Below are positions 3,090 to 47,533 of a stretch of DNA of 50,373 nt, in pieces (within the stretch, counting starts at the first letter, position 1; each line of letters opens with the position of its first letter). The notes below the pieces were generated by a model. The model was not told the DNA's origin. It made no database searches and saw only the letters and a program-made list of their open reading frames with translations. The translations under genes and the position numbers were made by a program. Source of the stretch: an uncultured Armatimonadota bacterium (GTDB lineage Bacteria; Armatimonadota; Fimbriimonadia; Fimbriimonadales; Fimbriimonadaceae); the NCBI GenBank assembly GCA_903833215.1, contig CAILEM010000122.1:1-50373 (forward strand). Direction: 5' to 3'.

Positions 3090-3953
3090 TCACGGCTCGA
3101 TGTGCATCTCGTCGAGCAACCGACCCAACATATCGTGGTCGTATCGATCCATTTTCTCGGCTCGACTCGACTCGAGGGCGGCTTCTTCAGGTTGATCGGA
3201 TTCCTCCAAGAGGATTCCGAGAATTCCGTGGTAGAGATGCTTTTCTGGATCCAATTCGCCAGCGAGACGTATCGCCTTGATCGCTTCGACTTTCCGATTG
3301 GCGCGCCAGAAGGCGACGGTTGCGCGAAGATACAGGAAATCGTCACCGGGAGAAATCTCAATTGCCGCTCGGAGGGAATCAAGCGCATCGTCAAACTGCT
3401 CCATCTCGATGAGCAGATCTCCCAACCAGTAGTGGAAGAACGCAACATCCGGTGCACAGGCAACCGCAGCCTGGGCGGCGGCGACGGCCCTCTTCCGCAT
3501 GCGCGCCTCACGAAGGGTCTGGGCTAACTTGATATGCAGATGAGCGTTCTTAGGATCTTTCTCAATCGCCTCTTCGAGTCGAAGAACCGAGTCTTTGAAC
3601 CTTCCGTAGCGGCGATACAGGTCGGCAACCCCGATGATGGGCTCAACTGCATCCTCTTTCGCACGAATCGCCTTTTCATATTGCCGGAGCGCCTGTGGAA
3701 ATTCGTCTCCGTATTCGTAGGCGCCACCCAGGTCGGTTATCACGGCGATATCGTTGGGATCTGCCTTGTCGAGCGCTTCTTTGAAATGTCGAATCGCGGT
3801 TGCCACATCGCCCTGGCCGAGGGCTTGTCGTCCCAAGTCGGTGCTTTCCTCTACGGTCTGGCCGTGGCGTTTGGTGCCGGACTCCACGATCTCGAGATCC
3901 GTCGGCTGAGCGACCTGAAAGAGGTCGGCGATAACTTTAAACGTTGGTTCCAT
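3090..3953 (-). CDS. Tetratricopeptide repeat protein
   Basis: About 287 residues from the start MEPTFKVIADLF; an upstream ATG adds only eight residues. From about residue 40 onward it is built of TPR units, each an A/B helix pair with the W/L-G-A/Y-A/P spacing, for example ALGQGDVATAIRHFKEAL, then YEYGDEFPQALRQYEKAI, and RYGRFKDSVLRLEEAI followed by DPKNAHLHIKLAQTL. There are about six to seven repeats. No signal peptide or membrane segment is seen, so it is likely a cytoplasmic scaffold or adaptor. Partners are unknown. It lies just downstream of, and in the same direction as, the large secreted protein at 4017-5834. Confidence 0.8.
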   Translation of the reverse strand: MEPTFKVIADLFQVAQPTDLEIVESGTKRHGQTVEESTDLGRQALGQGDVATAIRHFKEALDKADPNDIAVITDLGGAYEYGDEFPQALRQYEKAIRAKEDAVEPIIGVADLYRRYGRFKDSVLRLEEAIEKDPKNAHLHIKLAQTLREARMRKRAVAAAQAAVACAPDVAFFHYWLGDLLIEMEQFDDALDSLRAAIEISPGDDFLYLRATVAFWRANRKVEAIKAIRLAGELDPEKHLYHGILGILLEESDQPEEAALESSRAEKMDRYDHDMLGRLLDEMHIEP

Positions 3954-4016
3954 AATTCTTTGATTCACGCAGTGCACAGTGCCATGCGCAATCGGCTGTC
4001 TTATCTACGGCAAAAA

Positions 4017-5834
4017 TCAGCCTTTCGACCTCTGTTCTGCCGGCCGTAAGAACAGTGTGGCAGGATAGCTTCCCCCCGAAACAGGAAGCGTCAATATCTC
4101 AAAGTGTTTGCTTGCCCCGCTCGCAAGATGAAATCGTCCCAATCGGCTTTCCTGCTTCGGACCGAGCAGAGGTGTTTGCACCAGCTTTTGGTCCAGCAGA
4201 AATAGTCCGCCCATGTAGCCCGCACTCGCTTCAAAAGCAAGGTCAACGTCCGTTGGCTCGGCGGTTGGGTTCGTGATCGAAACGGATATTCGATAGATAA
4301 CCCCGAAATTTCCGTCGAGGTTATTCATGTGGTCCTCGCCAGAGATCGGCTTTTGTCCCAACAGAAGAAACCCATACCGTCCGCCCACTCGATAGTCCAA
4401 ATGCTCGTCTTTATAGGGGTTTGGGTACACGTGCGTCGATGGCTCGGATGGACCTCGATCGTATTCATTAACAGGATGGGTACCCGCTTCTCGCCAAGGG
4501 GTTGAACTGAGCGAGGCGTCGTACCAGGCTCCTCTTAACTCAAATGGCGGCAAGGCGTCAGCGCGAACTTGAACATCGGCAGGCCCATCGATCAGTTGAA
4601 GCGTGCAAAGTCCGCTTACCGTCTCTTTGGGACTGATGCGACGGATCGAAATTGGGAACGTGGTGTGAGGGGGCAGACTCACCACTTCCCCACTACTAGT
4701 CCGGAACAATTCTAAGAACTGACGTGCAGCCGTCATCCCGGCACGAACAGGGTTTTTGTCTGGTTTGCTGTCACCTGGCGTGATCAGAACCTTGGCGACA
4801 ACATCGCTATCGTTGATTGCCTCGACACGAAGAAGCATCGGCTGAGTGGCGATGTTGATGTGATGGTAAAGAAACCGGACGGGCAGCTTCGACTTGAGGG
4901 TGGAAGAAAACAACGGGCCGACTTGCCTGACCGCTTCGGGTGCGTTCGAGTACCACAGGGCCGAGTCAGGAGTGTTTGTAAGCGCCAAGTTGCGGACTGT
5001 CACAGAAACATTCCCAACCGCATCGAATGCGTCGGGTGCCTTTAACCTGAGGCGCACGGCGTAAGTCTTGGTCGCCCCGACAGCCAGGGCGTCCCCGCTC
5101 ACAGGAATGAAACTACAAGTTGCGGTCGGCAAGCTCACCACACGGGTTCTCAGGCATGCTTCAACGGCGCCACTCACCGTGGATTTTGCGGCAGGAGACC
5201 CCACGACCTCAGTAATGAACTCTTGAGGAAAGGTGCCTGCGTAAGGCCGGACTGCGACATTCAAAGTCCTCTGGGCATTTCCAGAGATCGCCGTCACCCG
5301 AGTATCTCCGTTGCCGACAAACTGAATATCGAAGCCACTTTCGGTTCGAGCCACTTTGGCGATGGAATCACTCGAACAGGAGACCTCAGCATGGAAAGCA
5401 AGGCTCCCCACCAAGCCGACATGCTTGGTTGTTCCGAGAGGTTCTCGCAGAAACTCCTCGGAGAATTTCAATGGCGGCAACGCAAGAGCATCTCTGAGCT
5501 TTGAAGCCCACTTTTCAGCGAGCATTGGCGCGGTTGTTTGGTGAGAGCGTGCTTCTTGGCTACTGACCATCACGGCTTGAATTTGGCCGGCAAAGACCTT
5601 CGTGTCTTCTCCCGCCGATCGCACTTTGACCACACTTTCTTCATCAAGCGTTCGGAGATTTTTGGCAATTTCGCTGGCGATCCGAGAGGGATCAGAACCG
5701 GACTTCCATTCGAGAATGGGCACGTTGTTGACGTACACGACGTCGCCTTTAACATGCGCCTCAGCGGCAAAACTGGCGGAAGAGAGGACGAGCAAACCGG
5801 CGATGGCTTGTAGACCTTTTGAAAATCGATGCAT
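4017..5834 (-). CDS. Large secreted protein of unknown function
   Basis: A 605-residue protein with a clear Sec signal (MHRFSKGLQAIAGLLVLSSA, cleavage probably near SFA-A or AEA-H). The first 60 mature residues, with VKGDVVYVNNVPILEWKSG, resemble a small beta domain seen at the start of other secreted proteins. The middle looks like stacked beta-sandwich or Ig-like modules (VSCSSDSIAKVARTESG, GNVSVTVRNLAL). The C-terminal third has YRISVSITNPTAEPTDVDLAFEASAG, typical of a beta-sandwich that contacts other proteins or sugars. No catalytic motif is recognised. The 182-bp stretch on either side gives no functional context, so no function is proposed. Confidence 0.75.
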   Translation of the reverse strand: MHRFSKGLQAIAGLLVLSSASFAAEAHVKGDVVYVNNVPILEWKSGSDPSRIASEIAKNLRTLDEESVVKVRSAGEDTKVFAGQIQAVMVSSQEARSHQTTAPMLAEKWASKLRDALALPPLKFSEEFLREPLGTTKHVGLVGSLAFHAEVSCSSDSIAKVARTESGFDIQFVGNGDTRVTAISGNAQRTLNVAVRPYAGTFPQEFITEVVGSPAAKSTVSGAVEACLRTRVVSLPTATCSFIPVSGDALAVGATKTYAVRLRLKAPDAFDAVGNVSVTVRNLALTNTPDSALWYSNAPEAVRQVGPLFSSTLKSKLPVRFLYHHINIATQPMLLRVEAINDSDVVAKVLITPGDSKPDKNPVRAGMTAARQFLELFRTSSGEVVSLPPHTTFPISIRRISPKETVSGLCTLQLIDGPADVQVRADALPPFELRGAWYDASLSSTPWREAGTHPVNEYDRGPSEPSTHVYPNPYKDEHLDYRVGGRYGFLLLGQKPISGEDHMNNLDGNFGVIYRISVSITNPTAEPTDVDLAFEASAGYMGGLFLLDQKLVQTPLLGPKQESRLGRFHLASGASKHFEILTLPVSGGSYPATLFLRPAEQRSKG

Positions 5835-5921
5835 AGCGGAGGACCCGGAGATTACCTAGTTGGGGCTTTGACACGACCAGCCCAAATATGGGTCGCTGGT
5901 AGAATGCCTTCTACAATTACA

Positions 5922-7415
5922 ATGACACCCATTAAGGCTAGGAACTATATTAACGGTGAGTGGATCAGCTCTGAGAACAACTTTGAGAGCTTGAACCCCG
6001 CCGATTCACGAGAGATCATCGGTACTGCACCCATCAGTGGGCTCGCCGAAGTCAACCAGGCCGTTGCTGCGGCAAAGAAGGGCTATGAGAGTTGGCGCGA
6101 GCTGAGTTGGATTAAGCGGGCCGAGTACATCGACACCTTTGCCCAGTTGATGAAGCGAGATATTCCTGACCTGGCAGAGTTGATCACCCGAGAATGTGGC
6201 AAGCCCATCAACGAAGGCCGCGCAGACGCCGTGGAAGCGTTGCATATGGCCCAGTACATGGCCGGCATCGGTCGCATTCCTAACGGCTACACCATCAGTT
6301 CTGAAATCGCTGCAAAGGATGCGTTCATCCTCCGCAAGCCAAAGGGCGTTATCGCATGTATCACCCCATGGAACTTCCCCTCAGCTATTCCGCTTTGGGT
6401 GATTCTGCCTTCGATCCTCGCCGGTAATACGGTGGTCTTCAAACCTGCCGAACAGACCCCGATCGTCGGCCACAAGCTGATGGAGCTGTTCCACGAAGCT
6501 GGCTTCCCCGCTGGTGTCATCAACCTCGTTCACGGAACAGGCGAAGAATGCGGCGACCCTTTGGTAAAGCATAAGGACGTCGCCGGGATCCTCTTCACGG
6601 GCTCTCGTGCCGTTGGCAAGTACGTTCAGCAAGTCGCAGCCGGAGATGCCTACAAGTTCGTCGCTACTGAGATGGGTGGTAAGAACGCCACCATCATCCT
6701 GGAAGATGCTGACTTGGATATCGCGGTGAATGCATGTGTCCTGGGTGGTTTCAAGACATCTGGTCAGCGATGCGTCAGCACGAGCCGAATCATCATCGAC
6801 CGAAAGGTCGAAGCCGAATTCACCCAACGGTTTATCGAGAAAGTCAAGCGCATCAAGGTTGGCAACGGCATGAACGAAGACGTGTTCATGGGTCCGTTGA
6901 TCGAAGCCAGCGGACTCGAAAAGTGGAAACTCCACCGAGCCAAAGCGATTGAAGAAGGTGCCGAAGTTTTGCTTGACGGTGAAGTTCTCACTGGCGGCGA
7001 CTACGACTACGGCAATTTCGTCAGCCCGTTTGTGTACCGAATGGAGTATCGGCCGGACACTTTCTGCCTGCGAGAAGAGGCATTCAGCCCACACGTCGCC
7101 ATCATTCCCGTGGATGGAATGGAGCAGGCGGTCGAAGTTTATAACGACACCGATTACGGACTGTCGATGGCAGTCATCACCGAGGACTATCGAAAGTGGC
7201 GATGGGTTCGCGACCACGCGGACTACGGCCTCGGCTATGTGAACCTACCCAGCATCGGAGCTGAGGTCCATCTTCCGTTTGGAGGCGTCAAGGCAAGTGG
7301 CAATGGCCACCCCGGTGCCGAAGGAATTTTGGAGACGGTCACCCACCGAATCGCATTCACGGTAAACCACGCGAAGGAGATTGTCATGGCACAGGGGCTT
7401 ACGACAAACGTTTAG
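5922..7415 (+). CDS. NAD(P)-dependent aldehyde dehydrogenase
   Basis: Oxidises an aldehyde to the acid with NAD(P). The start MTPIKARNYINGEW at 5922 gives a 497-residue protein of normal family length; an ATG at 5904 adds six residues and remains possible. Visible: TPWNFP of the cofactor fold, GNTVVFKPAE, FTGSRAVGKYV, the general-base glutamate in ATEMGGKN and the catalytic cysteine in TSGQRCVSTSR, then EEAFSPHVAI and PFGGVKASGNG. The base motif reads EMGGKN rather than the commoner ELGGKN. The substrate is not deducible. The HAD phosphatase follows after 6 bp, so the two are probably co-transcribed. Confidence 0.88.
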   Translation: MTPIKARNYINGEWISSENNFESLNPADSREIIGTAPISGLAEVNQAVAAAKKGYESWRELSWIKRAEYIDTFAQLMKRDIPDLAELITRECGKPINEGRADAVEALHMAQYMAGIGRIPNGYTISSEIAAKDAFILRKPKGVIACITPWNFPSAIPLWVILPSILAGNTVVFKPAEQTPIVGHKLMELFHEAGFPAGVINLVHGTGEECGDPLVKHKDVAGILFTGSRAVGKYVQQVAAGDAYKFVATEMGGKNATIILEDADLDIAVNACVLGGFKTSGQRCVSTSRIIIDRKVEAEFTQRFIEKVKRIKVGNGMNEDVFMGPLIEASGLEKWKLHRAKAIEEGAEVLLDGEVLTGGDYDYGNFVSPFVYRMEYRPDTFCLREEAFSPHVAIIPVDGMEQAVEVYNDTDYGLSMAVITEDYRKWRWVRDHADYGLGYVNLPSIGAEVHLPFGGVKASGNGHPGAEGILETVTHRIAFTVNHAKEIVMAQGLTTNV

Positions 7416-39102: not shown

Positions 39103-39212
39103 ACACCATAGGTGAGACACATACTAGCGATGGCCGCAGTCGTGGTACTGGTGTCACCCAAATCAGAGCACTGTAAGCGCAACCTATCTCGTCAATGAGC
39201 ATGGCCCGTTGG
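39103..39212 (+). repeat. Structured dispersed repeat, family 2, copy C (degenerate)
   Basis: Recognisable over about 110 bp as the element at 2941-3058: ACACCATAGGTG, TAGCGATGGCCGCAG, GGTACT, CAGAGCACTGTAAGCGC, then ACCTATCTCGTCAATGAGC. Several stem positions are changed, so it looks older than copies A and B. It lies in the gap 39027-39290, which otherwise holds only the operators below. Confidence 0.75.
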
Positions 39213-39219
39213 CCTGCCT

Positions 39220-39291
39220 CCAAGGAGAATCTGCCAGAGAATTGGCAGATTCTCCTTGGATATTCTCAAAATGTGTGCCAGAATTCTGGCA
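39220..39291 (+). promoter_or_regulatory. Predicted double operator of the BlaI-type repressor
   Basis: Two copies of TGCCA-N6-TGGCA, with spacers GAGAAT (39232-39247) and GAATTC (39276-39291). The first lies inside a perfect 17-bp inverted repeat (39220-39236 with 39243-39259); the second overlaps the A of the ATG. Their centres are 44 bp apart, about four helical turns, which would allow two dimers on one face of the DNA. BlaI-type repressors bind paired dyads upstream of their own gene, so autoregulation is the natural reading. Confidence 0.8.
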
Positions 39292-39677
39292 TGTCAGAAG
39301 AAGGCACTGATCTTAGCCGTCGTGAACGGCAGATTATGGAGACGCTCTATCGCCTTGGCAGGGCATCAGCGATTGAGATTCGAGACGCCATGCCTTCCCC
39401 GCCGACTTACACTGCGGTGAGAACGCATTTGGCACTTCTCACCGATAAGGGACTCATCCGACATGACCGTCAAGGCGCAAAGCACATTTATGAGCCGGTC
39501 GTCCCCAAAGACGAAATGGCTAAGAACGTGATTGCGGGAGTCATCGAGAACTTCTTTGGTGGCTCCGTCGAACGAGTCGTGGCAACCTTGATTGAGCCTG
39601 GTTCGGAAGGAATCTCTCCTGACCAACTGGATCGATTGAGCAAGCTGATCGAAAAAGCCAAGGAGCAAGGCAGATGA
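39291..39677 (+). CDS. BlaI/MecI-family transcriptional repressor
   Basis: 128 residues from ATG at 39291; an upstream in-frame start would run through the operator. The winged helix reads LSRRERQIMETLYRLGRASA, then PTYTAVRTHLALLTDKGLI and HDRQGAKHIYEPV, the BlaI pattern. The C-terminal dimer helix includes EMAKNVIAGVIENFFGGSVE. BlaI repressors are cut or released when a partner M56 protease is activated, and that protease follows immediately with a 4-bp overlap (ATGA). The target need not be a beta-lactamase; none is found here. Confidence 0.9.
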   Translation: MSEEGTDLSRRERQIMETLYRLGRASAIEIRDAMPSPPTYTAVRTHLALLTDKGLIRHDRQGAKHIYEPVVPKDEMAKNVIAGVIENFFGGSVERVVATLIEPGSEGISPDQLDRLSKLIEKAKEQGR

Positions 39678-41281
39678 TCGCTGTTGACGCCATCGACATA
39701 GCAGTGATGGCCCTTGAACTGACGATCAAAGTCAGCATCGTTCTGGTGTTAGGAATCCTCTTGAGCCGTTCGGTTCGCTCTCGATTCCCGTCCGGAGCCC
39801 ACCTCACATGGGTGTTGGCTTTTGCCACCATCATCACCATTCCATTTGTGGCACAAGTCGTTCCGGGTCGATCCATCCTGAACCTGAATCTGAAACCGGA
39901 GGTCAAATTCCGGCAAAGTGTTCGTAGAGGAGCGGTTTCCACCTCTTCTTCGCGACCTGACTTGAGTCAAAGCGAATCCGGCGGGTCGTCTGCGATAACT
40001 CAAGTGGCGATTGAACCGACAAACACACCGCCGATATTGGTCATTCTCGCTTTGGAAGCACCCTGGCTTGTTACGGCACTCGCTGTCTGGGTAATTGGTG
40101 TGCTGGTTGTCACCTCTCGCGCACTTCTTGGGATGCTCGTGCTGCTGAGATTACGATTCAGAGGAACGCGAGTATTCGATTCCATTTCGGTTCGCAGCAT
40201 CGCCAACAGAATTTCCGCGAAATCTGGTCTCGCCCGAAGATATGACCTGAGGATATGCACAACAGGCAAGATCCCAGTTCCTATGACATGGGGCGCACTA
40301 AAGCCGACCATTGTCGTTCCCACTGAAGCTTCAGAATGGACAGAAACGCGACTTGAGGCGACGCTACTCCACGAGCTTTCTCATATCCGCAGATGCGACT
40401 TCGTCTGTCAGTTGATTGGCGAATTCGCTTGTGCTCTGTACTGGTTCCATCCCCTTGCGTGGTACGCAGCGCGAACGATGCGAGAAGATGCCGAACTCGC
40501 CGCTGACGAAGCGGTTCTTCAAATGGGCCTCAAGCCCTCCGACTATGCATCAGAACTACTGAAGATTGCAGCCGACCTTGGCAACAAGCCGATGCACTTC
40601 GCCACCCTAGGAACTCCAGCAATGACAAACTCGAAGATTGAAACTCGACTCGAATCGATCCTGGCCCCTAACGCGGGTACCCGAGGAGTCACGACGCTCC
40701 AAGTGCTCGCTGCTCTCCTTTTCGTCGCTGTGACCATTCCAACCTTCGCTTCCCTTCACCTTTCGCCAGCCTCTCAGCAGAAAGGCGACGTTAAGCCAGA
40801 ACGTACCGAAGCACTAAACCGCGCGAAACAAATCGCCCTCGCGACGATCATGTATGCCAGTGATGCGGACGACTACATCCCTTACGTTCAGCAGACTGCG
40901 TCAGCCGTCCAAGTTCTACAACCCTACACGAAGTCAGAAGAGCTATATGAGTCTCCAACCAAAGGTGGAAAATTCAACTTCAATCTCAATCTCGCTGGCG
41001 TGGCCCTGACCGCAATCGAAAATCCCGCGGAAACGCCCCTCTGGTACGAAACGCTGCCAGATCCCAAGATGCTCATCGCCGTTTCCTACGTTGACGGGCA
41101 CGCCAGTCTGATCGATCCCAATGCCTTACCGGAGGCTGATAAGAAAGGAGTTGTAGCTGTACAAAAAGATGATTCGGCCAAGCCCATCTCTGCCCTTAAG
41201 CTTGCCCTTAAAAGGAAGTTTCCGAGGGACAAGGGAATGAAGCCACTCCCTGCCAACTATCTGCTTCCAATCAAACCCTAG
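39674..41281 (+). CDS. M56 (BlaR1-type) membrane metallopeptidase with an H-X9-DG-like C-terminal domain
   Basis: 535 residues. Membrane segments near residues 12-30, 43-63, 121-157 and 341-363. The zinc site is His233-Glu234-x-x-His237 in LLHELSHIRRCD, with a downstream Glu (EDAELAADEA). This is the antirepressor protease that answers to the BlaI-type gene beside it. The penicillin-binding sensor of BlaR1 is absent. Residues 380-480 instead read RAKQIALATIMYASDADDYI, then a VSYVDGHASLI, close to the prepilin-like (DUF1559) H-X9-DG domain common in Armatimonadota and Planctomycetota, placed on the outer face of the membrane. It is therefore a signal protease with an unusual sensor. Confidence 0.85.
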   Translation: MIAVDAIDIAVMALELTIKVSIVLVLGILLSRSVRSRFPSGAHLTWVLAFATIITIPFVAQVVPGRSILNLNLKPEVKFRQSVRRGAVSTSSSRPDLSQSESGGSSAITQVAIEPTNTPPILVILALEAPWLVTALAVWVIGVLVVTSRALLGMLVLLRLRFRGTRVFDSISVRSIANRISAKSGLARRYDLRICTTGKIPVPMTWGALKPTIVVPTEASEWTETRLEATLLHELSHIRRCDFVCQLIGEFACALYWFHPLAWYAARTMREDAELAADEAVLQMGLKPSDYASELLKIAADLGNKPMHFATLGTPAMTNSKIETRLESILAPNAGTRGVTTLQVLAALLFVAVTIPTFASLHLSPASQQKGDVKPERTEALNRAKQIALATIMYASDADDYIPYVQQTASAVQVLQPYTKSEELYESPTKGGKFNFNLNLAGVALTAIENPAETPLWYETLPDPKMLIAVSYVDGHASLIDPNALPEADKKGVVAVQKDDSAKPISALKLALKRKFPRDKGMKPLPANYLLPIKP

Positions 41282-41330: not shown

Positions 41331-42191
41331 ATGGGTATGCAGCGACTCTTGGGCAGATGGGATTTGACAGTCGGTGAAGGAAAGGATCTCTTCCCTTCGT
41401 GGGTGGAGTTGACACCGCGCGGTGGCCAGTTTGTGGGGCGAGTCGGAAGCGCACGGCCCATCGTTAGCGTTGAGTACTCGAGTGACAGCGTCAAGTTCTC
41501 GTTGCCACCCCAATACGAAGGAAGGAAAGACGATCTTGTCTTCCAAGGCTCGTTGAGAGCTGGTAATTTGTACGGAACGACGACGCTAGATGATGGATCG
41601 AACGCTCATTGGATGGGGATTCCGGCCCCAGAACTTCCCTCATACTCACCATCGTGGCGAGAGACTCAGGAGTTAATCGGGCCAGACCTATCGAACTGGA
41701 CTCTTCGGAGCCCTGATTGGGTGGGTAATTGGTCGATTGAGGACGGACTGCTTGTTAATTCGGCGGCAGGTTCCGACCTCGTAACCGTCAGTAAATTCGG
41801 AGACTTCAAGCTCGTGGCCGAGTACAAGTATCCGCCAAACAGTAACAGCGGAATCTATCTGCGTGGCCGCTACGAATTCCAGATTCTCGACGACTATGAA
41901 AGTGGAGCCAATGGTGTTGGTAGCAGCGCCGCTATCTACGGCTTTCTCGCTCCGAGCAAGAACGCCATTCTTCCTCCAGACGAATGGAATACGGCGGAGA
42001 TCACCTTAGTCGGTAGGTTCGTAAGCGTTGTTCTCAACGGCGAAACCGTCATCGACCATCAGGAGATTCCGGGGATCACTGGCGGTGCGCTCGATAGCAC
42101 GGAAGGTGCCCCCGGGCCTCTGTTCGTTCAAGGCGACCATGGACCGGTGACTTTCCGACGTCTCTCGATCACTCCCGGCATTCGACTTTAG
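41331..42191 (+). CDS. DUF1080 (3-keto-disaccharide hydrolase-like) protein
   Basis: 286 residues; no signal peptide is seen. An N-terminal lipocalin-like part (LLGRWDLTVGEGK) and the DUF1080 lectin-like jelly roll with NWSIEDGLLVNSAAGSDLVT, FKLVAEYKYPPNSNSGIYLRG and YEFQILDDYES, ending with ALDSTEGAPGPLFVQGDHGPVTFRRL. DUF1080 was named for 3-keto-sugar hydrolysis in some members; others only bind sugars. The EFQILDD and GPLFVQGDHG motifs, the core of the family, are intact. The gene lies 50 bp after the M56 gene on the same strand. Confidence 0.85.
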   Translation: MGMQRLLGRWDLTVGEGKDLFPSWVELTPRGGQFVGRVGSARPIVSVEYSSDSVKFSLPPQYEGRKDDLVFQGSLRAGNLYGTTTLDDGSNAHWMGIPAPELPSYSPSWRETQELIGPDLSNWTLRSPDWVGNWSIEDGLLVNSAAGSDLVTVSKFGDFKLVAEYKYPPNSNSGIYLRGRYEFQILDDYESGANGVGSSAAIYGFLAPSKNAILPPDEWNTAEITLVGRFVSVVLNGETVIDHQEIPGITGGALDSTEGAPGPLFVQGDHGPVTFRRLSITPGIRL

Positions 42192-43819
42192 GTCGCGACT
42201 TCGGATCTCATGCTTAGGACATCTTCCAACGAGGATGCCAGATCCGGCGTGAGATCCGATTGAATCCCGTCAATGGCTGGCCCTCGCAAGATAACACCAG
42301 CTTTCCGCTTGGGTGCAGAGTCTATTCCCTCAAACACAATTCGCACCACGATGGCGGGAAGGACTGTCCGTACCGGGCCAAATCGCTCAATCGTATTCTC
42401 TTTGATGAAGATCTCTATAGATTTGTACTCGTCATCCGTCCAAGGACTGGCCACTTTGGCGATCGGAACGAGTTGTTCGTCTTTCCAAACCCCAAACGTG
42501 AACTGCGTGTATCGACTCGCCTCCGCTCCAGCCCCTCGTTCTGCATACATAAGCACGCCATTGAGACTCATGGTGTCCGGCTTGATGATCAACCAATCCG
42601 GGTCTTGATTTGAATCCGGATAAGGGGCGTCTAGATCTCGTGCCAAGAGGCCGATATGCCCCAAGGCTCGTGCGTGAAGACACGCTTGTTGCAGTTCGGC
42701 CTGGTCTCGAATAGAGATCGACTGAGAAATGCAAATAGCCCCTTGGCCAAGTTCAACATCACCTGTGATGGAATTCGCCTGGGTGATATTGACGTCTGTG
42801 ACAACTTCGTTCAGGAGCGCAAAACGAGTGCTCAACACTTCGTGTCGAACGCTATTCCCGTGATGCTCAAGGACGTCCATCGCGACAAACTGAAGCGGTA
42901 CCTTCGGGTCCAGCGCGTCGACACCGGAAAACGCCAAGGCAAGCGTCATATAGGGGGGTGCCCCTTCGCTGGGGCAAACAATCTCGCCTTCTATAACCAC
43001 GCCATCAGGAATGAACGGTAACGATTTGGCGATCTCGGGAACGAGGTCGGTAACCAGCACTCCAGCAGTGGCCCACACAAACCCCTGCCCTCCACGGCGG
43101 ACGATCTGGGCTCGAAGCCCCCTGCGCTTCCACTCAAACCGTTTTCCGCTCAGAACGTCGATGGTGCCAACTCTCCTCTGCGTATCCGATATCGGGAACA
43201 GATCCAGGGGTGCCGAATGAACCGTATCGGAGATATCGGACGCAAGGAGTCCCTGAAAAGACGACGGACTTAATTCGTTTAGCAATGCGAAGCGAGCCTG
43301 CACAACAAAGTTAGGTATCCCCGCCATGATCGCCACCGCCTCAATGATCGCACCGCGGGAAATGGTTGGCCGGAAGGACCCGAGAACAAATCGGTTGTAG
43401 ACAAATCGCTCCTCCGCATTCAGTAATTCCCAACTCGACCGAAGAATCTCACTCTGGATCGCTGCTGGCTGCTTCGCAAGTGACGCGATGCGCCTGTCCA
43501 GCCACCAGGCAAGATCCATCCGTTCAGTTGTCGATGGCTCAAGATTTGGAAGAACAAGCGCGGCGGCTTCTGCCCGATCACCTGCCGCTTTCACACACTC
43601 CTCAAACAACCAAAGTCCATATCCCGATACCGCGAGTACCGCTTCGGTAAAACCAGACTTGGTCATATAGCGCTTTGGACGTGAATTCAGAAGTACCGCC
43701 ACGGCAGAAGCACATTCCTCCATGCTCGATTTGCGAAGATAATGGGCCAACTGACGCGCTTTCAAACGCATATCGCTACTGAGGTCAAGTTCGAGGCAAA
43801 GTCGAGCGAAGCGCTTCAA
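42188..43819 (-). CDS. Degenerate ATP-dependent DNA ligase (LigB/C type)
   Basis: 543 residues aligning end to end with ATP-dependent ligases of the ligase-exonuclease operon type: N-terminal helical domain, nucleotidyltransferase fold, then OB fold (YTQFTFGVWKDEQLVPIAKV, RFGPVRTVLPAIVVRIVFEG). Motif I, normally KxDGxR, reads Lys231-Arg-Arg-Gly-Leu-Arg, so the Asp is Arg233. Motif II keeps EGEI. Motif III reads FVAMDVLEHHG. Motif IV, normally EGLMLK, reads Ile389-Gly-Leu-Leu-Ala-Arg394. Motif V keeps only the last Lys (Lys413). Motif VI is RKAGVILR. There is no stop or frame change. Adenylation is doubtful. It overlaps the upstream exonuclease by ATGA. Confidence 0.85.
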   Translation of the reverse strand: MKRFARLCLELDLSSDMRLKARQLAHYLRKSSMEECASAVAVLLNSRPKRYMTKSGFTEAVLAVSGYGLWLFEECVKAAGDRAEAAALVLPNLEPSTTERMDLAWWLDRRIASLAKQPAAIQSEILRSSWELLNAEERFVYNRFVLGSFRPTISRGAIIEAVAIMAGIPNFVVQARFALLNELSPSSFQGLLASDISDTVHSAPLDLFPISDTQRRVGTIDVLSGKRFEWKRRGLRAQIVRRGGQGFVWATAGVLVTDLVPEIAKSLPFIPDGVVIEGEIVCPSEGAPPYMTLALAFSGVDALDPKVPLQFVAMDVLEHHGNSVRHEVLSTRFALLNEVVTDVNITQANSITGDVELGQGAICISQSISIRDQAELQQACLHARALGHIGLLARDLDAPYPDSNQDPDWLIIKPDTMSLNGVLMYAERGAGAEASRYTQFTFGVWKDEQLVPIAKVASPWTDDEYKSIEIFIKENTIERFGPVRTVLPAIVVRIVFEGIDSAPKRKAGVILRGPAIDGIQSDLTPDLASSLEDVLSMRSEVAT

Positions 43820-44832
43820 TCTTCGTCTCCATCCGAGAATCCGTCGGAATCAGATCGCCAGCCAGCTTTTAATTCTTGAGCATCCAGCCCTAATTCCCTC
43901 AAGAACTGAGCAACGGTCTCGCTGAATCCGTGGGTAACTAGCACTCTATGTGCGCCGGTGTCCGTAACCGCTTGAATGAGAGAATCCCAATCGACGTGGT
44001 CACTCATCACAAACCCCTTATCGACCGCCCGACTACGCCATGTGCCACGGACTGCCATCCAGCCAGACATGTAAGCGGTGGCAAATGGTCCGATGCCGTT
44101 TGTCCAATTTGCCCCACTAAGGTTGGGAGGAACTAGAACAGCCGCCTTGCTCCAATCAAATCCAGGACCGACCGATTCAAGTGGAATCACCGCTGGCAAC
44201 TCTACACCCTCATCGCGATAGGCTTCGATATATGGAATCAGGGCAGAATGGGCAACGATGGGGCCGATACTTGGATCTAGGCCCGAGAGAACTCGCTGAG
44301 ACTTGCCGAGCGAATACCCCAACAAAAAGGTCGCCTTGCCTTCGGTTTGGTTTTTCTCCCACCATCGGTTGATCTCGCCAAACACGACACTTTCCTTCGG
44401 CCAACGGTAAATGGGGAGGCCAAAGGTCGACTCGGTAATAAACGTGTGACAACGAATCGGCTCGAATGCCCGGCATGTTCGATCAGGCTCCGTCTTATAG
44501 TCTCCAGAGACGACAACGACCTCTCCGCGTCGTTCGATTCGAACCTGCGATGAGCCTAGGATGTGCCCGGCTGGATGCAAACTGACTCGGACTCCGTTCC
44601 ATTCGACGGCCTCTCCATAGGCCAAGGTTTCGATGCTCGCCTTTTGGCCAATCCGGAGATGCAGAACCCGCTTGCAGTCTTCAGCGCAGAGATACGACCC
44701 CATGCCGGGACGGGCGTGGTCGGAATGAGCGTGGGTAATGACGGCACGGTCCACCCTCTTCCAGGGGTCGACGTAGAAATCGCCGTCGGCACAATACAGC
44801 CCACGATCCGTCACTTGCAGCAAGTCAGCCAC
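43816..44832 (-). CDS. Ligase-associated metallo-beta-lactamase-fold exonuclease
   Basis: 338 residues, the Exo partner found with LigB-type ligases. Metal motifs intact: HAHSDHA near the N terminus (TH-A-H-S-D-H), HPAGHILGSSQV, VSGDYKTEPDRTC, and the C-terminal SDHVDW and VTHGFSE. Beta-CASP segments (FLLGYSLGKSQRVL) are present. Such enzymes trim DNA or RNA ends. The Lhr helicase and PdeM parts of the usual four-gene cluster are absent, leaving only the pair. The end overlaps the ligase by 4 bp. Confidence 0.9.
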   Translation of the reverse strand: MADLLQVTDRGLYCADGDFYVDPWKRVDRAVITHAHSDHARPGMGSYLCAEDCKRVLHLRIGQKASIETLAYGEAVEWNGVRVSLHPAGHILGSSQVRIERRGEVVVVSGDYKTEPDRTCRAFEPIRCHTFITESTFGLPIYRWPKESVVFGEINRWWEKNQTEGKATFLLGYSLGKSQRVLSGLDPSIGPIVAHSALIPYIEAYRDEGVELPAVIPLESVGPGFDWSKAAVLVPPNLSGANWTNGIGPFATAYMSGWMAVRGTWRSRAVDKGFVMSDHVDWDSLIQAVTDTGAHRVLVTHGFSETVAQFLRELGLDAQELKAGWRSDSDGFSDGDED

Positions 44833-46663: not shown

Positions 46664-47533
46664 TCAAGGATGCCCAGACACCCAATCTCTAAGAGTGTCA
46701 ACCGACACCCCCAAAGCGCTCAACGCACGAGCAGTTGCGTTGTTTCCATGAGCATGAGCAGCGAGCAAAAAGTGGGATGAGTTCAGGAATTGGCTAAGAT
46801 GGTGAGCTTCAACGATAGCCAATTCCAGCAATTGGGAGGCATTTAGAAATCCAGCAAGGATCTGCTCTGGTGTTTTCATCGCGAGGAAGTCTTCCTCAAG
46901 GAGCAGTGCCAATGAGTCAATTTCAACGCCACAGCCAACAACAGCTTGTTCGGCGTAACCACCCGCTTCAAACAAAAACATGAGGCAAAGCTGGTCGGCC
47001 ATCATCCGTTGCTTCCTCGCCGCCAGCACAGTTACCGCTTTGCTTGATGCTGGAATGTCTCGTGGTTGAGTCGGATGCGGCTCGGGTATGAGTTTCGCAC
47101 CTTTCCCGACCATTGAAATCACTTCTTTTCGCGCGGCATCGAGAGTAACACCCTTCTTGTTCAAAACCTCGCTAGCGATCCCATCGACCTGATTAAGCAG
47201 TCCTAAGAGCAGATGCTCTGTGCCGATGTAGTTGTGGTTCAGGTTACGGGCTTCCTCATAGGCGAAATCGACCACTTGTTTTGATCTTGGTGAAAGGGTC
47301 AAGTCTGAAGGATCATTCTGGGGACCACGAGGCAATTGTGCCGAGACTATCCGATCGAATAGGTCGGGCCTTGTGCCGAGTTGAGTCAATACTCTTGACC
47401 CCACACAAAGACTGTTATGAGTGATACCAAGCAGAAGATGCTCAGGATCAATAACTCGAGTCCCAAACCTTTGGGCCTCTTCCTGGGCGTAGTAAACCAC
47501 CTTTCTCGCGGAGTCCGAAAAACGTTGCCACAT
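46664..47533 (-). CDS. Clp-N domain protein without AAA domains, second of a pair
   Basis: 289 residues. MWQRFSDSARKVVYYAQEEA and HLLLGITHNS begin a Clp amino-terminal (Clp_N) repeat; the second repeat reads LSPRSKQVVDFAYEEARNLN, then NYIGTEHLLLGLLNQVDG, the most canonical ClpC-type segment. Residues 165-289 are a second, more divergent Clp_N-like pair (RMMADQLCLMFLFEAGG; SHFLLAAHAHGNNATARAL). No Walker A or B motif exists anywhere, so it cannot unfold proteins itself. It may be an adaptor that takes substrates to ClpC, or a stress-protein decoy. Its upstream paralogue begins the same way (MWQRFS). Confidence 0.85.
   Translation of the reverse strand: MWQRFSDSARKVVYYAQEEAQRFGTRVIDPEHLLLGITHNSLCVGSRVLTQLGTRPDLFDRIVSAQLPRGPQNDPSDLTLSPRSKQVVDFAYEEARNLNHNYIGTEHLLLGLLNQVDGIASEVLNKKGVTLDAARKEVISMVGKGAKLIPEPHPTQPRDIPASSKAVTVLAARKQRMMADQLCLMFLFEAGGYAEQAVVGCGVEIDSLALLLEEDFLAMKTPEQILAGFLNASQLLELAIVEAHHLSQFLNSSHFLLAAHAHGNNATARALSALGVSVDTLRDWVSGHP

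Follow-up and report, generated by a model that had tools for sequence, protein, structure and literature searches.

The LigB-type DNA ligase encoded beside a beta-CASP exonuclease in an uncultured Armatimonadota bacterium of the family Fimbriimonadaceae appears, with good support from sequence comparison, to have lost its catalytic residues. The gene lies in a stretch of 50,373 nt (hereafter the window; contig CAILEM010000122.1 of assembly GCA_903833215.1, the genome being labelled G000). The explanation that we consider probable, with some reserve, is that this pseudo-ligase has been retained to serve the exonuclease (Exo) as a DNA-binding or structural partner, and that the sealing of nicks is left to LigA.

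The gene occupies positions 42188 to 43819 of the minus strand and encodes a protein of 543 aa with a TTG start. An initial annotation of the window had described the frame as open, and the 543 codons between 43819 and 42188 are indeed free of stops. The protein, a TIGR04120 homologue, is LigB-type by descent, with full-length homology and the domain order DNA-binding, nucleotidyltransferase, OB. It scores 302 bits against PRK09247 (match over residues 1-537), below the curated cut-off of 543, and 251 bits against TIGR04120, far below the curated cut-off of 400, while its identity to canonical members is 27-35%. A scan of the genome collection with the window protein alone, as a single sequence, found no relative.

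The domain boundaries given here are approximate. The N-terminal DNA-binding domain, residues 1-205 (43205 to 43819, minus strand), has a weak PF04675 match of 22 bits and is helical in the AlphaFold2 model, where it aligns to human LIG1. The degenerate nucleotidyltransferase domain, residues 206-420 (42560 to 43204, minus strand), matches PF01068 at 45 bits over residues 228-413. The OB domain, residues 421-543 (42191 to 42559, minus strand), is the best conserved of the three at second codon positions, and contains the block F480-G-P-V-R-T-V-L-P488 (42356 to 42382, minus strand). In an alignment of 19 members, G481, P482, V486 and P488 of this block are invariant in all 19, dead and canonical alike, and R484 is present in at least 90%. 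AlphaFold2 predicts a full three-domain ligase (pLDDT 86), and the model aligns to human LIG1 (6p0d) over 516 residues with a Z score of 28.7 and an rmsd of 6.0.

Of the nucleotidyltransferase motifs, all on the minus strand, only motif III is kept (E277-G-E279-I-V, 42977 to 42991); the other five, I, IIIa, IV, V and VI, are all broken. Motif I (K231-R-R-G-L-R236, 43112 to 43129) reads E-W-K231-R-R233-G234-L-R236 against the canonical E-W-K-W-D-G-I-R; the Lys, Gly and Arg are kept and the Asp has become Arg. Motif IIIa (M314-D315, 42875 to 42880) has lost its aromatic residue, F being replaced by M314. Motif IV (I389-G-L-L-A-R394, 42638 to 42655) has lost the Glu and Lys of the canonical E-G-L-M-L-K, and motif V (I411-I-K413, 42581 to 42589) has lost the first Lys of the canonical K-W-K and kept the second. 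In motif VI (R512 to L523, 42251 to 42286), R515 has been replaced by A, R520 by Q and K523 by L. The changes go beyond chance: the 16 canonical members that were aligned have the same motif residues throughout, except for one K-to-L change in motif VI and the alternation of F and Y at motif IIIa (motif VI of G014 falls beyond the end of its contig), and nearly all relatives in other phyla, described below, are canonical too. The initial annotation had read the changes in motifs I, IV and V as they stand (Lys-Arg-Arg-Gly, Ile389, Arg394 and the first motif V Lys). Its list of broken motifs was correct for these three and incomplete, since IIIa and VI are broken as well.

Residues K231, G234, R236, E279, K413 and R512 are still present, and the predicted structure retains the full ligase fold. 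Both points favour residual or altered catalysis, in which the changed active site would seal pre-adenylated nicks or perform a different nucleotidyl transfer. Such activity is nevertheless quite unlikely: the protein has lost together the Asp of motif I, the Glu and Lys of motif IV, the first Lys of motif V and most of motif VI, and, among the relatives described below, the sister protein in G004 has no nucleotidyltransferase domain, and those in G094 and L194 have no motif I lysine.

A sequencing or assembly error, which the initial annotation had named as an argument against its own claim, was rejected and has a negligible probability. The assembly is a draft of 168 contigs, but the changes are many in-frame substitutions over five motifs, without a frameshift, and the degenerate state is shared with three relatives in separate assemblies. 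The suggestion that the substitutions might be common to a clade proved right. Four genomes of the genus have a non-canonical ligase: G000 (the window), G004, G012 and G019. All four are without two residues, the Asp of motif I and the Lys of motif VI. In the G019 ligase, motif I reads KWNG, the second Lys of motif V is gone and motif VI is mostly lost; that of G012 reads KWTG, has His in place of the motif III Glu, and combines the loss of both motif V Lys with an altered motif VI. Relatives with restored motifs had also been put forward as a counter-argument. Canonical motifs do occur in the genus, in G005, G006, G007, G013 and G014, but these are the more distant members, which represent the ancestral state, while the closest relatives are degenerate.

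In G004, almost all of the nucleotidyltransferase domain has been deleted in frame. The remaining frame, 340 aa as listed, consists of the DNA-binding domain, a short linker and the OB domain. It lies directly downstream of the exo gene, whose end it overlaps by ATGA at its Met 7. AlphaFold2 predicts two well-folded domains (pLDDT 91, pTM 0.65), the relative placement of which is uncertain because of this pTM value. By structural alignment, the modelled domains correspond to the first domain and the last of archaeal and human ligases. The DNA-binding domain aligns to that of LigIV in its crystal structure with a peptide of Artemis (4htp) over 185 residues, with a Z score of 13.8 and an rmsd of 3.3, although a middling Z for helical domains can be unspecific, and the descent of the ligase rests on sequence. 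Given that the G004 form consists of DNA-binding and OB domains only, its role in this species cannot depend on a nucleotidyltransferase domain that recognises nicks.

The window and G004 share a gene order, consisting of a GT4 glycosyltransferase, exo, the ligase, a 3-keto-disaccharide hydrolase and an M56 peptidase. In the window, at 39195 to 41281 of the plus strand, the M56 peptidase is BlaR1-like (PF05569, 122 bits), stands beside a 160-aa BlaI-type repressor-like protein, and has a C-terminal stretch with VDGHASLID beyond the matched domain. Elsewhere in the window (46664 to 47533, minus strand) is a stand-alone protein of 289 aa in which only the Clp N-terminal domain was matched (PF02861, 113 bits, in three stretches); a homologue of it is found in the same neighbourhood of G004 (L024, 5735 to 6652).

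The exo gene of the window (43816 to 44832, minus strand) overlaps the start of the pseudo-ligase gene by four bases, TTGA. Its product is an intact ligase-associated exonuclease of the MBL/beta-CASP type. With TIGR04122, for which the cut-off is 325 bits, it reaches 446 bits, and it retains HxHxDH as well as the other invariant residues of its family. A helicase of TIGR04121 (Lhr-Core) and a phosphoesterase of TIGR04123 (MPE) are encoded together on another contig of G000, C109. The ligase is thus a member of the Lhr/Exo/Lig/MPE cluster, having an adjacent TIGR04122 exonuclease and the TIGR04121 and TIGR04123 proteins elsewhere in the genome. This Lhr/Exo/Lig/phosphodiesterase cluster, with its LigB-type ATP-dependent ligase, is that of Ejaz and Shuman (2018, as cited in PMC10140301); according to PMC10140301, neither its role nor the kind of damage on which it acts is known. 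The window ligase resembles the TIGR04120 LigB-type ligases in its domain order, its exonuclease neighbour and the Lhr-Core and MPE of its genome. It differs from them in what its motifs lack, namely the Asp of motif I, the aromatic residue of IIIa, the Glu and Lys of motif IV, the first Lys of motif V and the larger part of motif VI, and in reaching 251 of the 400 bits.

The association of ligase and exonuclease is unbroken. Exo is present in nine of the 20 genomes of the genus, and the same nine carry Lhr-Core and MPE over cut-off together with a ligase or its remnant. Across the phylum, none of the 23 genomes in which Exo exceeds its cut-off has simply lost the ligase; each retains the gene in some form, if only as a remnant. 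The initial annotation had already called the pairing with an intact exonuclease conserved. A canonical cluster that scores over cut-off is also present in Caulobacter. Loss of the whole pathway was considered and rejected, with Exo, Lhr-Core and MPE all over cut-off in the four degenerate members of the genus. A separate observation concerns G003, a member of the genus without an Exo, ligase or MPE match, in which two Lhr-like helicase matches of 220-225 bits, below cut-off, lie on contigs C11 and C12. The NAD-dependent LigA is intact in the genomes of the degenerate clade, and a search with the TIGR04120 profile (E 1e-5) found no second TIGR04120-like ligase in G000, G004, G012 or G019. For these two reasons, sealing in the four species would be done by LigA.

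Trees of Exo, Lhr and concatenated Exo plus Lhr were built with FastTree. In the Lhr tree, G000 groups with G004 (0.988) and G012 with G019 (1.0), and the two pairs form one clade (1.0) beside the canonical G007 (0.984). The concatenated tree has the same topology. The Exo tree recovers the four-species clade (0.998), with its internal order not resolved. One ancestral loss followed by progressive decay would fit this pattern, since the losses of Asp from motif I and of Lys from motif VI are common to all four ligases. As the replacing residues differ, some losses may also have occurred later and in parallel among members of the clade.

Degenerate ligases are found outside this clade as well. 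In G094, of the same family, the motif I Lys and Asp and the stretch holding motif III are absent; its sisters G092 and G093 are canonical (0.996 in the Exo tree). The mildest case is G156, from another family of the phylum, which reads KWEG at motif I, with Arg for the motif IV Lys, Ile in place of the first Lys of motif V, and changes in motif VI; G128, to which it is most closely related, has a canonical ligase (0.998 in the Exo tree). The losses in G094 and G156 are separate from that in the four-species clade. Among relatives from other phyla, 79 of 80 keep the residues of motifs I, III, IV and V. The exception is L194, from a Chloroflexota MAG (3880 to 6461, plus strand), where motif I reads E-W-T-W-G-G-I-R (Lys to Thr, Asp to Gly); it lies beside an intact exonuclease, and no second ligase copy was found in its genome. 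The TIGR04120 cut-off of 400 bits is no test of activity, since the dead-looking ligases of G156 (437 bits) and L194 (482 bits) pass it. Conversely, a low score alone does not mean a dead enzyme, and the pattern is no by-product of low similarity, because 11 other ligases of the phylum that score below the cut-off have intact motifs (G110, G111, G118, G126, G129, G202, G203, G205, G206, G224 and G274) and are ordinary ligases.

A different departure from the canonical form occurs in L030 (G032:C75, 2 to 2125, plus strand), a further ligase of this family, in which about 180 aa have been inserted between motif IIIa and motif IV. Its frame is 707 aa long, the HMM matches it in pieces 10-344 and 342-526, and the contig starts here. 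No Exo was found in the G032 genome.

A gene without a catalytic function might simply be a relic, with an activity no longer needed, a slow decay under relaxed selection and a frame that is still open for now, chiefly through its translational coupling to Exo or through chance. The ligase does evolve faster in all degenerate lineages, and the loss of motifs is progressive, from G019 through G000 to G004. Branch lengths of the degenerate ligases are about 1 to 2.3, compared with 0.06 to 0.66 for the canonical ones; this much faster evolution indicates that constraint on the ligase has been relaxed as well as changed. Within the four-species clade, identity is 73-80% for Lhr, 55-64% for MPE and 56-64% for Exo, but only about 30% for the ligase. 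In the canonical pair G007-G013, Exo identity is 67% at an Lhr identity of 69%. The divergence in the clade is thus unusual for the ligase, moderate for Exo and not unusual for Lhr and MPE. The divergence of Exo would be as expected if Exo and the pseudo-ligase change together, and could also reflect relaxed constraint on both.

Other features of the gene nonetheless make a relic unlikely. No stop is found in any degenerate frame, and frames remain open in six lineages of the phylum and in L194 despite saturated third positions. In a neutral simulation of 200 runs, in which a canonical gene (G007) drifted to 40% identity by substitutions only, with insertions and deletions ignored, a mean of about 15 stops accumulated, the minimum in any run was 7, and the first stop appeared on average at about 95% identity. 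In comparisons between the four clade members, which are taken to have diverged after the presumed loss, the values relative to random expectation are 0.94-1.01 for third codon positions but 0.54-0.62 for second positions; within the OB domain, the second-position values are 0.42-0.60. The pseudo-ligase is therefore constrained, less than the canonical members and most of all in the OB domain. Saturation of third positions in the pairs of interest is also the reason why classical dN/dS was set aside. GC by codon position in the ligase gene is like that in exo. Furthermore, all 23 genomes with Exo keep the gene, and in G004 the deletion has preserved the reading frame and left two flanking domains that are both predicted to fold. 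Purifying selection on the residual protein is therefore well supported as a reading of these codon patterns. By comparative evidence, the protein combines loss of catalytic residues with selection, two of the features by which a pseudoenzyme is recognised.

The non-catalytic partner favoured here would have arisen as follows. Nucleotidyl transfer would have been lost in the ancestor of the four-species clade, and the gene kept for the functions of its DNA-binding and OB domains. The pseudo-ligase would most likely bind duplex DNA, and possibly Exo itself, and as a structural partner it may position or restrain the beta-CASP exonuclease encoded by the overlapping upstream gene, nicks being sealed by the NAD-dependent LigA. 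Lack of ligase activity, DNA binding, contact with Exo and the takeover of sealing by LigA are all inferred. Contact with Exo is suggested by gene linkage and by precedent, and the partner could instead be Lhr or MPE. Of the proposals in the initial annotation, the pseudo-ligase itself is supported by the losses shared within the clade, the in-frame loss of the catalytic domain in G004, the independent losses and the purifying selection. The role that it had offered, in which the protein either holds nicked DNA for the exonuclease or acts as its regulator, is consistent with the anatomy of the protein and the unbroken pairing with Exo.

The same domain and linkage evidence would also suit a nick guard or inhibitor. 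Sitting on nicks or ends, the protein would block LigA or Exo until Lhr or MPE had done its part, and its role would be to delay rather than to assist. Occupation of the substrate is what would be expected of a ligase shell without catalysis. Such a role is rather improbable, considering that the G004 form is without the domain that contacts the nick itself, though the data do not separate help from restraint; restraint of Exo or LigA and help are equally compatible with them.

Two precedents make a structural role for the pseudo-ligase reasonable. Yeast DNA ligase IV (Dnl4) without catalysis still supports end joining, probably through another ligase (PMC3694833). The likeness is that a ligase protein without catalysis aids repair; the difference is that those are laboratory mutants acting in end joining with the partners Lif1 and Ku, whereas the window holds a natural gene. 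The DNA-binding domain of human LigIV, through its first helices, binds the beta-CASP nuclease Artemis (PMC4037875; PDB 4htp), and it is to this domain that the G004 model aligns. In this case, however, the ligase is active, and Artemis binds by a C-terminal peptide. The pseudo-ligase also recalls another group of proteins, from which it differs in fold and pathway. Inactivated archaeal family B DNA polymerases have been conserved after losing their catalytic residues, presumably in a structural role.

The LigB-type descent and the cluster are known; what appears to be new is a naturally dead ligase, without its catalytic domain in one species, that is kept beside a nuclease. A search of the open-access literature, which most subscription papers lie outside, found no natural pseudo-DNA-ligase. 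Whether the idea extends further is evenly balanced: in several bacterial lineages, the cluster ligase may have come to serve the beta-CASP exonuclease as an obligate non-catalytic subunit, in which selection keeps the DNA-binding and OB domains and repeatedly discards catalytic residues, and once the whole catalytic domain. The conserved job of the gene in the cluster would then be structural, and not sealing. For annotation, the consequence is that profile cut-offs would label the dead-looking proteins of G156 and L194 as active ligases. For the family, natural forms without catalysis, one of them without the catalytic domain, separate sealing from the other functions of a ligase. They would show which parts of a ligase must stay beside the exonuclease, and make a non-catalytic role directly testable.
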